A DNA stretch of 22,596 nt, taken from positions 1 to 22,596 of IMG/VR virus record IMGVR_UViG_3300014501_000083, one strand, 5' to 3'. Positions 2,997 to 22,373 of this stretch are shown here, one piece after another. Each line of letters starts with the position of its first letter. The stretch's first letter is position 1. The DNA comes from a virus. Below the pieces are notes generated by a model that worked only from the letters and a program-made list of their open reading frames with translations, did no database searches and was not told where the DNA came from. A program made the position numbers and the translations under genes.

Positions 2997-4757
2997 ATGA
3001 GCGGTACACCAACTTTTCAGATAACCAATGCAGGGCTTCAGGCCGCTTCTATAGCCAGTCCTACCGGCCCTTGGATATCAATTACTGGTTTTCAAATTGG
3101 TTCAGGATACGGCTACACTCCTCTTCCTACTGATCCAGGCCTAAGCGGTTCTCTTCTGTTTTCAGGAACACCGACCTCCTACCAGAATATAGGTAGCGGA
3201 ACCTTGGATATTTTGTGCGAGATTCCTCCAAACGCTGGACCTTTCCAGTTTGGCGAAATCGCATTGATGCTACCTGGCAATGTTATGTTTGCCAAGGCAG
3301 TGTTTCCAGTTGCGCAAACCAAATTTAGTGCCTTAGGTAGTAATGTAGTATCTTCCTACGAACTACACTGCCTGTTGACACTTGCTCAGGGCACCGCCAT
3401 TTTTCAGATCACTACTGCAGTACCTACTACACTGCTCCAGGTCTTTAGTTGGTCGGATATTTATCCCCCTAGACTAAGTGCAGATCCTACTGTTCCTCTT
3501 GTGCAGGTGATGGAACTTTCTGAGTATGGTGACGCAACTTTGTTATCGAATGCAAGTAACAGTAAATGGAGTATTGAGGGATCAACATATCAGAGGTACG
3601 ATAACCAAGGGGGCGGCCCTTCTTTTTCCGTAGCCAACGCATCGTCTACCTGGATTGAGATTCTCGCAGCTTCCTTAAATCCGCTTGATCTTACGAACAT
3701 CAATAGCAATCGTTTCGTTATTGAGACACCAGATAACTACTTCCGTTCTGTTAGTACCGTAGTACCGTCAGGTTCAAGTTATAGATTTACTCTTAACGGT
3801 ACACCGCTGCAGACGGTGCCTGCCGTTGGTTCTAGCGTTGTTATCTATCGTGATGATCAGGCGCAAGGGGTATCTTATTATTCACAGATACTTGACCCTC
3901 TGTACTATGATAAAGCTCAACTTGCTCTGAACACAGGTACGGTTAACGCGTATGCTGCTACGTATAAGCAGAAGAATCCGATTCCTTACGAGGGGATGAT
4001 TCGTTCCCTAGATGTCGGTAACATTACTAACACTGGCGCTTCTACGTTTGCCTGCGATGGAGGAGCACCTTACCCGATTATTGGGCAAGCCAGTCTACCT
4101 TTACAAGGTGGGGAGATTAGCGGGGCAGTCACTCTCCGATTTAGTACAGCTAGTAACAATTGGATTATTCAGAGTAGTGCGTCCGGAGCATTACAGATCC
4201 CTAATGCGCTGCACAGTCAACACGCGTTATCATTAGGACAAGCACAGGCAGATTTCGCAGCTCTCAACGGTAATGCAAGTCTTCCGTTTTACGCTTCTCT
4301 TCTGGAGTCTGAAGTCTTCCAGGCGCCTGCTGGGGTCCCTGCGTTACTAGAGAGCGATGTTTACACGGCATCTGTAAACAGAGCAGGTAACAATTATGTA
4401 CAGCACTATGCGGCTCCGGCTACTACAGGCCAGGCGGCAGTTATTCTGTCTCAGTTTCCTAGCTCACTAGATATCAATGGTTATAAAAAATATCCTGATC
4501 CTAGCAGCCCAACTGGATACTTCATTGAGCAGTGGGGTACCGGAACGTACCCCACTCAGTTGACAACAACAAGTAATTTCCCGATAGCATTCCCTGTAGC
4601 TGTTTTAAATTTCACTGTGTCTCTCGGGTCTGGCATCAATTTGACTACATTCAATGATTGTGGCGGAGAACCGATTAGCTTATCTCAGTTTCAGATTAGC
4701 GTAGGATCCACATCCATCGGATCTGACGCGGTGTGGTGGACTGCCAAGGGATATTAA
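2997..4757 (+). CDS. Tail fibre protein with DUF3751-like anchor and gp53-like tip
   Basis: This is a 586-aa fibre. Residues 1-140 form an N-terminal virion-attachment domain like those of tail-collar fibre proteins, with landmarks FQIGSGYGYTPLPTD (32-46) and GPFQFGE (81-87). The same landmarks recur at the N-terminus of the 1404-aa fibre at 17153-21367. The middle is Ser/Thr/Gly-rich shaft. Residues about 495-586 match the C-terminal gp53-like fibre tip: YFIEQWGTGTYP near its start and a terminal WWTAKGY. The start has a GAGG ribosome site 7 nt upstream. A DUF4376 assembly gene follows after 10 nt, the classic fibre-then-chaperone order. The tip is the likely receptor-contact part. Confidence 0.8.
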   Translation: MSGTPTFQITNAGLQAASIASPTGPWISITGFQIGSGYGYTPLPTDPGLSGSLLFSGTPTSYQNIGSGTLDILCEIPPNAGPFQFGEIALMLPGNVMFAKAVFPVAQTKFSALGSNVVSSYELHCLLTLAQGTAIFQITTAVPTTLLQVFSWSDIYPPRLSADPTVPLVQVMELSEYGDATLLSNASNSKWSIEGSTYQRYDNQGGGPSFSVANASSTWIEILAASLNPLDLTNINSNRFVIETPDNYFRSVSTVVPSGSSYRFTLNGTPLQTVPAVGSSVVIYRDDQAQGVSYYSQILDPLYYDKAQLALNTGTVNAYAATYKQKNPIPYEGMIRSLDVGNITNTGASTFACDGGAPYPIIGQASLPLQGGEISGAVTLRFSTASNNWIIQSSASGALQIPNALHSQHALSLGQAQADFAALNGNASLPFYASLLESEVFQAPAGVPALLESDVYTASVNRAGNNYVQHYAAPATTGQAAVILSQFPSSLDINGYKKYPDPSSPTGYFIEQWGTGTYPTQLTTTSNFPIAFPVAVLNFTVSLGSGINLTTFNDCGGEPISLSQFQISVGSTSIGSDAVWWTAKGY

Positions 4758-4767
4758 AGGAATTATC

Positions 4768-5331
4768 ATGGGACAGAAATACGCAGCTTTCGATGAACAA
4801 GAGAATGTCGTTGGACACTATGATGACGTAGATAGCCCAGTGCCCCCAGCGGTAAAGAATGTTATCAAGATCACAGATGAGGAGTGGTCAAAATGTATCT
4901 CAACTCGTGGTTACAAGGTTAGCAACGAAAAACTAGTTGCTCCACCCGCACCTAGTGTACAACAGCTTCTCAGTGATGCTCAGGCAAAACAAAATACACT
5001 ATTAACCAGAGCCTACGATTTAGTCATCCAGTCTCCTGTCAGCTACACAACACAGGCAGGAATCACTAACGTGTATCAAGCTGATACTAGAAGCATTGCT
5101 GCTTTGAACGCCGCCCTTCAGACGTTCTCGAAAACTCTACCGCCAGATTTCTACTGGATTGCTCTAGATAACACCAAAGTGCTTTTCACCTACGCAGATC
5201 TCCAAGGGCTTGTTGAATCTATAGGAACTAGTAGGCACTCGTTGTTTCAGCAACTGCAGAAGCTGAAGACTAGTGTACGAAACGCCAAGAACGTTAGTGT
5301 AGTTAAACAAATTGTGTGGGTATCACCATGA
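4768..5331 (+). CDS. DUF4376-type tail fibre assembly/accessory protein
   Basis: This 187-aa protein begins with a short variable N-terminus (MGQKYAAFDEQENVVGHYDD), followed by a Pro-rich linker (APPAPS near 58) and a helical DUF4376-like region from about residue 70 to 183. That region shows the usual order: an LLTRAYDLVI helix, an aromatic YTTQAG strand, then VLFTYADLQGLVESI. Proteins of this kind lie just downstream of tail fibre genes and are generally annotated as assembly chaperones or fibre accessory parts. An AAAGGA ribosome site lies in the 10-nt gap after the fibre gene. The stop TGA overlaps the ATG of the next gene (5328-5331), so the phosphoesterase is translationally coupled to it. 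Confidence 0.65.
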   Translation: MGQKYAAFDEQENVVGHYDDVDSPVPPAVKNVIKITDEEWSKCISTRGYKVSNEKLVAPPAPSVQQLLSDAQAKQNTLLTRAYDLVIQSPVSYTTQAGITNVYQADTRSIAALNAALQTFSKTLPPDFYWIALDNTKVLFTYADLQGLVESIGTSRHSLFQQLQKLKTSVRNAKNVSVVKQIVWVSP

Positions 5332-5837
5332 GAAAGATCGAAGCTCGTATTCTCTACGACTCCATCAAACAGCTTAACCCAGAGGGTGGTCTATATGTTT
5401 GGGTGGTACCCTCTGCTCGTTCCACCTTAAAGCTGCAGAAGTTAATGCAGGGTGCACCCTTCAAGATTAGGAACACTACTCAACTGCACTGCACGATCAT
5501 GTATCATCATGACGTACTGCCTGAGCAGATTGAAGTTCCAGACGATCGGGAGATGGTGGGATTGCTTAGGGAATTGGTGATCTGGGAGGAACCGGACGGA
5601 GAACTTATTCTGGTAGGACTAATTCATTCAGAGGATCTGCAAGAGTTGCATGAGGAATTAAGTGCTCAAGGTCTAAAACATTCCTTCGAGGACTACACAG
5701 CACACATCTCTCTGGGTAAGGACCTACAGAAAGATCCGCAAACACTAGAGTGGATCGAAGAAAAGAATGCGATGCTAGATGGTCTTCCGTTTGTCATCGA
5801 CTTCGATGCGTGCATCAAGGGTAGTTCGCTGGCCTAG
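5328..5837 (+). CDS. 2H phosphoesterase, candidate Acb1-like anti-CBASS nuclease
   Basis: This 169-aa protein carries both signature motifs of the 2H phosphoesterase superfamily: H54-C-T56 in LHCTIMY and H126-I-S128 in AHISLGK, 72 residues apart. This family cleaves 2',3'- or 3',5'-phosphodiesters such as cyclic nucleotides. The residues around the motifs (GLYV at 21-24, APF at 43-45, a Leu/His/Glu-rich helix before GLKHSFEDYTAHIS) resemble my recollection of phage Acb1 (T4 gp57B), which destroys cyclic oligonucleotides made by CBASS. I chose ATG at 5328, overlapping the previous stop, over a GTG at 5316. Other 2H roles, such as RNA end or ADP-ribose-type phosphoester processing, cannot be excluded. 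The superfamily call is firm, the anti-CBASS role an inference. Confidence 0.75.
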   Translation: MRKIEARILYDSIKQLNPEGGLYVWVVPSARSTLKLQKLMQGAPFKIRNTTQLHCTIMYHHDVLPEQIEVPDDREMVGLLRELVIWEEPDGELILVGLIHSEDLQELHEELSAQGLKHSFEDYTAHISLGKDLQKDPQTLEWIEEKNAMLDGLPFVIDFDACIKGSSLA

Positions 5838-5880: not shown

Positions 5881-6036
5881 ATGTCTAATATTTATGGTTT
5901 GAAGCCAGTGCTAGAGGTAACAGACGCAATGGTGAGCGCGGGACTTAGGCAGCATCCAATGCCACCTGAAACTATGCGTAGTATTTTAGAGAACGCATTG
6001 TGCTACGCAGAACTCCCGAAGCCTGTTCCGAAATAA
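5881..6036 (+). CDS. 51-aa hypothetical protein
   Basis: This is a short gene, last in the left plus-strand unit. The chosen ATG at 5881 has AGGAG 6 nt upstream; a longer in-frame reading from 5779 would overlap the phosphoesterase gene and lacks a ribosome site. The product (MSNIYGLKPVLEVTDAM onward) is 51 aa and neutral, with a predicted helix around METMRSILENAL-like residues 31-41 and a Pro-rich end (LPKPVPK). There is no signal or membrane segment and I do not recognise a family. Its initiation site is enclosed in a hairpin, and a strong terminator follows within 55 bp, so expression is probably tuned at translation. Confidence 0.6.
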   Translation: MSNIYGLKPVLEVTDAMVSAGLRQHPMPPETMRSILENALCYAELPKPVPK

Positions 6037-6089
6037 AGAATTGGGTCGAGGAATTCCTGATTGATCTCAGTTGTTGCTGTAAACGAAAG

Positions 6090-6122
6090 AAGGGACTACC
6101 AATGATGAGTTGGTAGTCCCTT
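6090..6122. terminator. Bidirectional intrinsic terminator between convergent units
   Basis: A perfect 13-bp stem, AAGGGACTACCAA (6090-6102) with TTGGTAGTCCCTT (6110-6122), closes a 7-nt loop TGATGAG. On the plus strand it is followed by a T-rich tail (TTTGTGCTTT). On the minus strand the complement of the left flank (aaacgaaag) gives a T-rich tail too. It lies between the 51-aa gene (ends 6036) and the minus-strand gene ending at 6143, exactly where two convergent transcripts must stop. Confidence 0.9.
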
Positions 6123-6142
6123 TGTGCTTTGTTGCTCTTAAA

Positions 6143-11592: not shown

Positions 11593-12158
11593 CCTCATTG
11601 AAAATGACGCTAACTTACCTTGCAAACTATCTTGATCACACAAGATACGCGCAGGAAAAAGCAAAGCTGGAGGGTCAGTCTTTCTATACTAGAGGGCCAA
11701 TCTTAGAAGACTTCGGAGTTGATAGTGAGGGCTTGAAGTTACTCGTAGAGAACCTTGAACTAAAAGATCAGGCCCTGAGGTCTTGCATCAAGGCGCTACA
11801 ACTTGCTCTACCCCCTATGCAGGTAGATGAACAAGGGAATGGACCTGATTGCACGACCATCTTTCAGGCAATCATCGATGCTAGCCAGGCTCTTACCCAA
11901 GGAAAAGAAATGAATGAACGTCCTGAGTGGGTCCGCTGCATTAGACGCACACATGCAGAACACGATAAAGAATCTTGGTGCGGAAAGCCTACCTACAGTT
12001 TTGATAAGCCCTTCCTTGCTGTAGATCACGCAGCCGAGAACGGATTGCAAGGAGGGCGATTGATGGCCTGCCGTGAATGTGTTGCAGCGGCTGTTCTAGC
12101 ACTGCAGAATGGTCACGATGACTCTGAATATCCTAGAGTAACTGCAAATGAAAACTAA
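11589..12158 (+). CDS. 189-aa hypothetical protein with Cys/His-rich C-terminal domain
   Basis: I chose ATG 11589, which overlaps the previous stop and follows AGGAGAAG. Residues 1-107 are mostly helical (LEDFGVDSEGLKLLVENLEL, then LRSCIKALQLAL). From M108 a different module begins, NERPEWVRCIRRTH, with C117, H122/H125, C131, H147 and C161-x2-C164, a likely zinc-binding arrangement. An internal ATG (11910) in the same frame has its own AAGGA ribosome site 6 nt upstream and could yield an 82-aa C-terminal protein, so this may be a fusion of two once-separate genes. It overlaps the exonuclease gene by 11 nt. Function is unknown; a nucleic-acid-related role fits the neighbour. Confidence 0.65.
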   Translation: MTSLKMTLTYLANYLDHTRYAQEKAKLEGQSFYTRGPILEDFGVDSEGLKLLVENLELKDQALRSCIKALQLALPPMQVDEQGNGPDCTTIFQAIIDASQALTQGKEMNERPEWVRCIRRTHAEHDKESWCGKPTYSFDKPFLAVDHAAENGLQGGRLMACRECVAAAVLALQNGHDDSEYPRVTANEN

Positions 12159-13083
12159 AGAACGAATTCTAGCTGTAGATGGTAACTGGGTACTTCATAG
12201 GGCAGCCTTTACCCTGAAGACCTCTCGACCTATCGGAGAAGCACTAGCATACAAATTTGTCGGTATGATCTGCAAAGACGCATTATCCGTCAAAGCAAAC
12301 TATCTACTGGTAGCCTTTGACGGCCCTGACGTATTCCGATACAAGGTGTATCCTCAATACAAAGAAAGTAGGCGAGAAGGTAGAGGCGCACCTGTTGACG
12401 CTGAGAACGCCGAACCTGCTTTAGACGTGTACCAATACCTACCTGACGTCTACGCGCTACTCCACAAGCTTGGTATAATTTTCTTCCAGCCGAAGACGTA
12501 CGAAGCTGATGACGTACTATGTAGTGTGGCTAAATTCTACGGCAAAGACTACAAGGTGGTCTGTGATACAGTAGACAAAGATGCTTACCAGTATCTGGAG
12601 TCCCGTAACGTATGTCTGTATGATCCCTCTGCCAAGGGTAAAGATGGTAAGTCTAAACCTCGATATATTTATTGTGAAGACGCAGAAAAGAAAAAAGGTG
12701 TTTCGGTTTCACAGATGGTGGATTATCAGACGTTGATAGGTGACTCAGGGGATTCTATTCCTCCGATCAAAGGTATTGGACCTGCTAGGGCGAAGGCTAT
12801 ATTAACGAAGTACGGGTCGATCAAGAACTGGCACAAGAAGTGCAAAGAAGATTTGGAATTCATTACTGCGGAAGCAGATAACATTAGACGTAACCGCAAG
12901 CTCGTTAAATTGTGTGAAGATGTACTACCACCTAACGAACTGCAAGAATGGAAGCTCCGGAAGAACGATAAAGTTTATAAAGGAGATAAGTTCCTTAGCC
13001 GAAGCTTCCATGATTATTTATTATTTTTATATCCGCGTACTAGAGGCCTTGGGCTTATTTTAGAGGCTATCCATTCAACGTAA
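12148..13083 (+). CDS. 5'-3' exonuclease / flap endonuclease (FEN superfamily)
   Basis: This 311-aa enzyme is related to the Pol I 5'-nuclease domain and phage T5/T7-type exonucleases, which remove 5' flaps, RNA primers and nicked strands. The acidic metal-binding set is intact: D11 (AVDGNW), D58 in AFDG, Y-K-R helical arch (FRYKVYPQYKESR), E119/D121/D122 in EADD, D143/D145 in DKD, and D199 and D202 in GDSGDSIPPIKGIGP, the last also giving the helix-hairpin-helix DNA contact. The family usually reads GDSSDNIPG, so SIPP is a mild variant. The final 17 bp overlap the 3' end of the opposing tailspike gene with no terminator between them. It is a DNA-metabolism gene isolated among structural genes. 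Confidence 0.9.
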   Translation: MKTKERILAVDGNWVLHRAAFTLKTSRPIGEALAYKFVGMICKDALSVKANYLLVAFDGPDVFRYKVYPQYKESRREGRGAPVDAENAEPALDVYQYLPDVYALLHKLGIIFFQPKTYEADDVLCSVAKFYGKDYKVVCDTVDKDAYQYLESRNVCLYDPSAKGKDGKSKPRYIYCEDAEKKKGVSVSQMVDYQTLIGDSGDSIPPIKGIGPARAKAILTKYGSIKNWHKKCKEDLEFITAEADNIRRNRKLVKLCEDVLPPNELQEWKLRKNDKVYKGDKFLSRSFHDYLLFLYPRTRGLGLILEAIHST

Positions 13084-21368: not shown

Positions 21369-22373
21369 TTATGTATTCTCCCTACACCTCATGAGCACCG
21401 TACGGGCGCTGTCTGAAGATGTGATTTCGTGAAATGTAGTGTGAACCTTTTGGCGTTTCACTACGACTAGAGCTAAAACAAATTTGGCGCTATTCTTTCT
21501 GCACCAGTCTACCGCAGAACTGAATTTTGCTACGTTATTTTCAAAACGCATATTGACTGTATAGTCACTTTTAACTTCTAACAATATTTTCTTTCCTGCT
21601 ACTGTCCTAATCAAGGCGTCCGGGTAGTATCTGCGGCGTTTACCCTCGAAGGAATATCACACTTCTGGCATCTTACTAGCTGCAGTAACCAACTTCGCTA
21701 TCTTGGATTCTATAGCACGTAACGCATGGTGCTCGTAGCCCTGTACATCATAAAATTTTCCATTCACTACAATCTGTTTGTTACCGAGACTACTCTTCTG
21801 TTGCTTTTCAAACGCGCGCGAATCTTGAAGTGGGAAATCTGTACCTCTTTTGCGTTGAGAGGTAGCCTTATACTTTTCAGACCACTCTATTGTGCTAGAG
21901 AAATATTTTGTACCATACCTCTCCTCCATAGTGTGCTCCGCCATTACACGTAACTTCGTAGAAGAGAAAGTAAATCCACCATACCTCTCACTCATAGTTG
22001 CTTTAGTCTTGGCAAGTACCGTAGGATCTTTTGATACGTGCGATACCCCACGCTTCCGTATATGCGTAGCTTCGATAGTTGCTCGAACTTCAGGCGCGCT
22101 TGCTGAGCATTTGTAGCTGCAGTAGGTTCCTCTGTATCCTTTTATGAAGCTACGGAATTTTGTTCTAGGGCTCCCGCACTTCTTACACAAGTTGTCACTC
22201 GGCTTCAAAAAGTCGTACAACTCTTGTGCTGTATATTTCTCACCTAGGTAGTGTACGAGCCTTCGATGCAACCGTGGATCTTGACGCGCAGTCTTTACCG
22301 GTTGTTGTCCGTGCTCTGTCCTTTGACAGATCCAGTCGTACACTTCACTTCTATCGTACTTTAATTTTTTCAT
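21369..22373 (-). pseudogene. Homing-type PD-(D/E)XK endonuclease interrupted by in-frame TGA
   Basis: Codons 1-238 (22373-21660) encode a zinc ribbon (C63-x2-C66, C85-x3-C89, the latter in YCSYKC), then four [KR]-x-G repeats (HIRKRGVSH, TMSERYGGF, TMEERYGTKYF, TSQRKRGTDF) and VQGYE (210-214... E213). A TGA follows at 21659-21657. The same frame then stays open for 95 codons to a TAA at 21371-21369 and holds the catalytic core: YYPD with D252 and LEVKS with E266 and K268, in the right order and spacing. Read through, the product is 334 aa. The first part alone lacks the active site. Either a nonsense mutation has killed a free-standing homing-type nuclease, or UGA is suppressed. It lies 1 nt upstream of the long fibre ATG and supplies that gene's ribosome site. 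Confidence 0.75.

Follow-up and report, generated by a model that had tools for sequence, protein, structure and literature searches.

An Acb1-family 2H phosphoesterase, probably directed against CBASS, beside a tail-fibre assembly gene of a likely Burkholderiales jumbo phage

The gene at positions 5328–5837 (+) of the window, a 22,596-nucleotide stretch of a viral IMG/VR record (IMGVR_UViG_3300014501_000083), encodes a 2H phosphoesterase of the Acb1 family, and is thus a new member of an already known family, as seen from Pfam, PHROG, PDB and AlphaFold2 evidence. That this protein is a phage Acb1 acting against CBASS we consider likely, with a probability of roughly 0.83. Its family, its fold and its conserved catalytic and stacking residues come from the window protein itself; its chemistry and the evasion of CBASS are extrapolated by homology from the work on the Acb1 enzymes of T4 and Erwinia phage FBB1. 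The gene would give a little-sampled lineage of jumbo phages an anti-CBASS nuclease that looks functional.

The reading frame translates into 169 residues and a stop; an alternative in-frame start, GTG at 5316, would extend the protein to 173 residues. As the original prediction had described, it contains two H-x-[ST] motifs (and only these two), H54-C-T56 (5487–5495, +) and H126-I-S128 (5703–5711, +), spaced by 72 residues. Across 26 aligned homologues, the H and T of the first motif and the H of the second are invariant; the third position of the second motif is S in the window and in two homologues (L003 and L061), and T in the remaining ones. Taken alone, two such motifs are weak evidence, being only modestly unlikely: composition shuffles of the protein contain at least two of them in 12% of cases, and two with a spacing of 60–90 residues in 2.8%; other evidence was thus sought. 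A chance origin, possible on the motifs alone (2.8%), is excluded by the profile and fold matches, and it is these matches, far above chance, that establish family membership.

The Pfam model for Acb1 (PF23474) matches the protein with 52 bits, against a curated cut-off of 27, and was confirmed on the genomic DNA; PHROG 755 matches with an E-value of 3.4e-22. Against the PDB, phmmer finds 9q2g (E 1.7e-28) and 9q2y (E 4e-27), both deposited as Anti-CBASS protein Acb1 (released 2025-11-05) and titled 'Phosphodiesterase from Burkholderia phage BCSR5', one with the lid closed and one with it open; the match to FBB1 Acb1 has an E-value of 0.005. In profile-profile comparison, the jumbo-phage clade aligns to T4-type Acb1 from residue 12 to about residue 135 (99.6%, E 1e-23). 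Membership among LigT/ThpR proteins or 2'-5' ligases was rejected, since all models tried fell below their curated cut-offs: 2_5_RNA_ligase2 (PF13563) with 22.1 bits (cut-off 27), LigT_PEase (PF02834) with 14.8 bits (cut-off 23.3), and the NCBIfam model TIGR02258 with 19.4 bits (cut-off 65.7). A PADLOC run gave no match, and neither did a search of three relatives for the Acb2/Tad1 hairpin family (PF24729), which was made without a positive control.

The predicted fold agrees. In an AlphaFold2 model built from the 26 homologues (mean pLDDT 90.9), the five top-ranking Foldseek matches are all Acb1 entries, and by VIA-align the modelled fold is closest to the solved Acb1 structures: to 9q2y of BCSR5 with a Z-score of 23.1 (rmsd 1.7 over 160 residues), to the second BCSR5 entry with 20.1, to FBB1 Acb1 (7t26) with 15.8 (rmsd 1.9 over 135 residues), and to a further Acb1 entry with 15.5. 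Folds outside Acb1 – plant CPDase, Usb1 and LigT – reach at most 11.5, with E. coli LigT at 11.4. The original prediction had held the protein to be closer to Acb1 than to LigT/ThpR, and had proposed a profile search against Acb1 and other 2H families and an overlay of its predicted structure on Acb1; profiles, matches to solved structures, and fold all side with Acb1.

In Acb1, the catalytic tetrad is H44/T46/H113/T115 and the nucleotide bases are stacked by Y12/W74/F107/W147, while E141 contacts the adenine (N6) and residues 145–152 form a C-terminal lid (Hobbs et al., 2022; PMC9117128). The tetrad columns are occupied in the window protein by H54/T56 and H126/S128, with a single, conservative exchange of Thr for Ser, and three of the four base-stacking aromatics are retained. 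The counterpart of Y12 is Y23 (5394–5396, +), which is invariant in the 26 homologues; that of W74 is W86 (5583–5585, +), which is W in 8/8 clade members and W, F, or Y elsewhere; that of F107 is F120 (5685–5687, +), a position occupied by F, Y, or H within the clade. To judge from these residues, the protein very likely shares its chemistry with the T4 and FBB1 enzymes. The protein would then be a metal-independent 2H phosphodiesterase, whose U-shaped pocket would bind cyclic di- and trinucleotides made by the CBASS enzymes of the host, with the bases stacked on Y23, W86 and F120; H54/T56 and H126/S128 would enable attack of the ribose 2'-OH on the phosphodiester, and cleavage, with a cyclic phosphate as intermediate, would yield a linear product. 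With the signal removed, the CBASS effector would never be activated. A point against this reading is the tail-fibre-linked position of the gene, which might mean late expression.

In a maximum-likelihood tree, nine proteins split from the T4-type ones with a support of 100/99: those of the window, BcepSauron, BCSR5, Motura, L003, L011, L013, L014 and L018. The members of this clade have in common an N-terminal extension with A6, L/I9 and Y10; W25 is found in all of them except BCSR5, which has F. The closest relatives of the fibre gene and of the Acb1 of the window are found in the Burkholderia phages BcepSauron and BcepSaruman and in Achromobacter phage Motura, and L003, a 219-kb IMG/VR contig (G001), has the same gene order and an Acb1 79% identical to that of the window; these considerations suggest that the window most likely derives from a jumbo myovirus of Burkholderiales. 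BCSR5 itself was looked for in IMG/VR and in the phage collection and was not found. Within the literature library searched, neither a paper on the BCSR5 enzyme nor activity data for any clade member turned up. Two degenerate-pattern scans of genome contigs, for this clade and for the DarA-fused domain of Pantoea described below, yielded no bacterial or prophage homologues, an absence which the pattern pre-filter leaves short of established.

Homologues in BcepSauron and BcepSaruman are annotated as RNA ligase, prohead protease or hypothetical protein; one of them, BcepSauron_269 (L001:7989–8501), is an Acb1 homologue misannotated by GenBank as 'prohead protease' and by RefSeq as 'RNA ligase'. 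The latter label probably entered phage records through PHROG 755, which bears that name. In these phages, the genes under these three labels are Acb1.

The clade departs from T4-type Acb1 at its C-terminal end. The profile-profile alignment stops at about residue 135, before the lid; in the place of the latter, the model has a helix (137–152) followed by two strands (5736–5834, +), in which N147 and L150 are invariant in the clade. The T4-type proteins end in E-Y-x-E-x-L-x-W-like motifs, which the clade lacks, and two MAFFT alignments disagree on the counterpart of E141, placing it on L153 or on D151, so that no equivalent is named here. Since the segment cannot be aligned to T4 or FBB1, recognition of adenine through E141 cannot be assumed, and the base-reading lid of the clade appears to be different, or is at least unalignable. 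A lid probably exists, given that the BCSR5 entries are titled as open-lid and closed-lid. With a different lid segment, the base preference may possibly differ from that of T4 and FBB1, so that base specificity lends itself to a clean experimental test. A further step, which we put forward only tentatively, is that the lid was swapped in the Burkholderiales jumbo clade (the E141 motif gone, N147/L150 invariant, W25 in all but BCSR5), and that these enzymes hence cut different immune cyclic nucleotides, beating CBASS or avoiding Panoptes where T4 Acb1 cannot.

Upstream of acb1 lie a tail-collar/tail fibre gene (2997–4757, +; 586 aa, Gp53-like_C), whose first half is 44–48% identical to the tail collar of BcepSauron and BcepSaruman, and a gene resembling tail-fibre assembly proteins (4768–5331, +; 187 aa), which matches DUF4376 with 44 bits (cut-off 25) and PHROG 188, tail fibre assembly, with an E-value of 1.5e-4. 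Its TGA overlaps the ATG at 5328 by four bases (ATGA), bearing out the overlap that had been claimed, and the two genes are probably translated together by way of it. Downstream, a strong inverted repeat resembling an intrinsic terminator (6089–6123; 15-pair stem, T-rich tail) separates the convergent operons; a 51-residue reading frame between acb1 and this repeat (5881–6036, +) weakly matches PHROG 27390 (E 0.009). Elsewhere in the window are a 5'-3' exonuclease gene (12148–13083, +; Pfam 77 bits), between tail-spike and lysis genes, and, at the edge of the fibre region, a homing-endonuclease-like protein (21657–22373, -; PHROG 3339, E 1.9e-9).

The window, L003, L011 and BcepSauron have the same succession of fibre gene, small assembly-like gene, acb1 and opposing operon. 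The original prediction had seen here a diverged counter-defence enzyme held in the fibre neighbourhood of T4, where the 57A-57B pair is kept by T4-type phages; the Acb1-type 2H enzyme stands, the T4 neighbourhood does not. T4 57A gives no alignment with the 187-residue protein at E<=100 and belongs to PHROG 1002, which the DUF4376 gene does not match; no recognizable homology links the window's small gene to that of L003 or of BcepSauron, the gene having been swapped between window and L003 although acb1 is 79% identical; in the Motura branch, acb1 follows a helicase or an unrelated gene and precedes a gene of about 130 residues and the head protease, and the family occurs in many other gene contexts. 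A common origin of the pair was therefore rejected: the argument from coupling fails, while the identification of the gene holds. The adjacency to fibre genes appears to have arisen independently or to be incidental, a local habit of the phage's own lineage.

The same neighbourhood bears on whether the protein could be an accessory of tail-fibre assembly or structure, with the 2H domain as a relic. The overlap with the assembly gene and the order common to the window, L003, L011 and BcepSauron are what such a protein would show; the strictly conserved catalytic tetrad, the exchange of the assembly gene next to an acb1 that stays 79% identical to that of L003, and the different location of the gene in the Motura branch all speak against it, and we regard it as highly improbable. 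Somewhat less remote, yet still improbable, is a role in RNA end-healing, in which a 2H phosphodiesterase, either resembling LigT/ThpR or acting alongside RNA ligases of the phage, would open the 2',3'-cyclic phosphates of tRNA that host nucleases have cleaved. A function in RNA repair, with 2',3'-cyclic phosphates as substrates, was in fact assigned to the 2H proteins of jumbo phages (Iyer et al., 2021; PMC7824862), in a proposal older than the discovery of Acb1; the Motura-type accession cited there is, we infer, the Motura acb1 gene. This role has on its side the fold shared with LigT and the presence of RtcB, Rnl1 and Rnl2 in BcepSauron and of RtcB in the near relative G001. RtcB is, however, the only one of the three in G001, none of these domains was detected in Motura, and both phages retain the enzyme. 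Given these gaps, together with sequence and fold nearest to Acb1 and scores below all three LigT-type cut-offs, a signal-degrading role is favored, if not proved.

A change of target would be a variant of this signal-degrading role and not an alternative to it: an Acb1-fold enzyme turned by its replaced lid to another signal, such as the Panoptes decoy 2'3'-c-di-AMP, or cyclic oligonucleotides that have 3'2' or 2'3' linkages, lack adenine or are unusual in some other way. The unalignable C-terminal segment, the loss of the T4-type end motifs, and the clade-specific residues A6, Y10, N147 and L150, with W25 (F in BCSR5), all point this way; the catalytic and stacking residues are unchanged, and the standard activity, cleavage of 3'3'-cGAMP and cAAA, was seen in 9/9 additional Acb1 homologues assayed (PMC9117128). 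On balance, we hold such retargeting to be possible and rather doubtful.

Acb1 domains are also found in other settings. In a P1-like phage-plasmid (NZ_CP034366.1, plasmid unnamed3 of Pantoea sp. CCBC3-3-1), the place of DarA is taken by a 1038-residue protein (L063:3937–7050) that combines DarA_N (117 bits) and a weak DarA_C (25.2 bits, below the cut-off of 27) with an Acb1 domain (79.9 bits, residues 689–828) in which both Hx[ST] motifs are intact; no second fusion of this kind was found in PLSDB. DarA of the P1 type is a protein injected with the phage DNA. In Pectobacterium phage CBB, the Acb1-family protein CBB_118 (L064:2489–2932, KU574722.1; 58 bits), whose homologues in related jumbo phages are 72–97% identical, is listed among the proteins detected by mass spectrometry in purified virions (7 unique peptides, 60.4% coverage; PMC5259590). 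Together, the CBB virion protein and the DarA fusion suggest that Acb1 is delivered by the virion in other phages, and they make its delivery along with the DNA directly testable. A 2H-like domain on the portal protein of cyanophage Pam3 is hinted at by a weak match (E 0.06) of its C-terminal part (PDB 8hds_A, residues 497–589) to T4 57B. By eye, a 275-residue IMG/VR protein (L033:4602–5429) carries an acetyltransferase-like N-terminal extension of about 120 residues before its Acb1 domain, and one acb1 (L061:1893–6515) is flanked by two genes resembling ribonucleotide reductase subunits.

Among known systems, the BCSR5 phosphodiesterase is the nearest in structure, sharing 37% identity, the N-terminal extension, the fold and the clade, but having H-L-T as its second motif in place of H-I-S, and F and Y in place of W25 and K131. 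BcepSauron and BcepSaruman share 41% identity and the order of tail collar, small gene and acb1, but with a small gene not detectably related to that of the window. The enzymes of T4 (gp57B) and FBB1 (7t26, 7t27) have the same 2H tetrad, Y/W/F stackers and fold (Z 15.8), at about 22–29% identity; relative to them, the window protein has about 12 extra N-terminal residues, an HxS second motif, and a C-terminal lid segment that differs from theirs and lacks the E141 motif. With bacterial LigT/ThpR it has in common the 2H fold and the Hx[ST] motifs (Z 11.4), but falls short of the cut-offs that define them.
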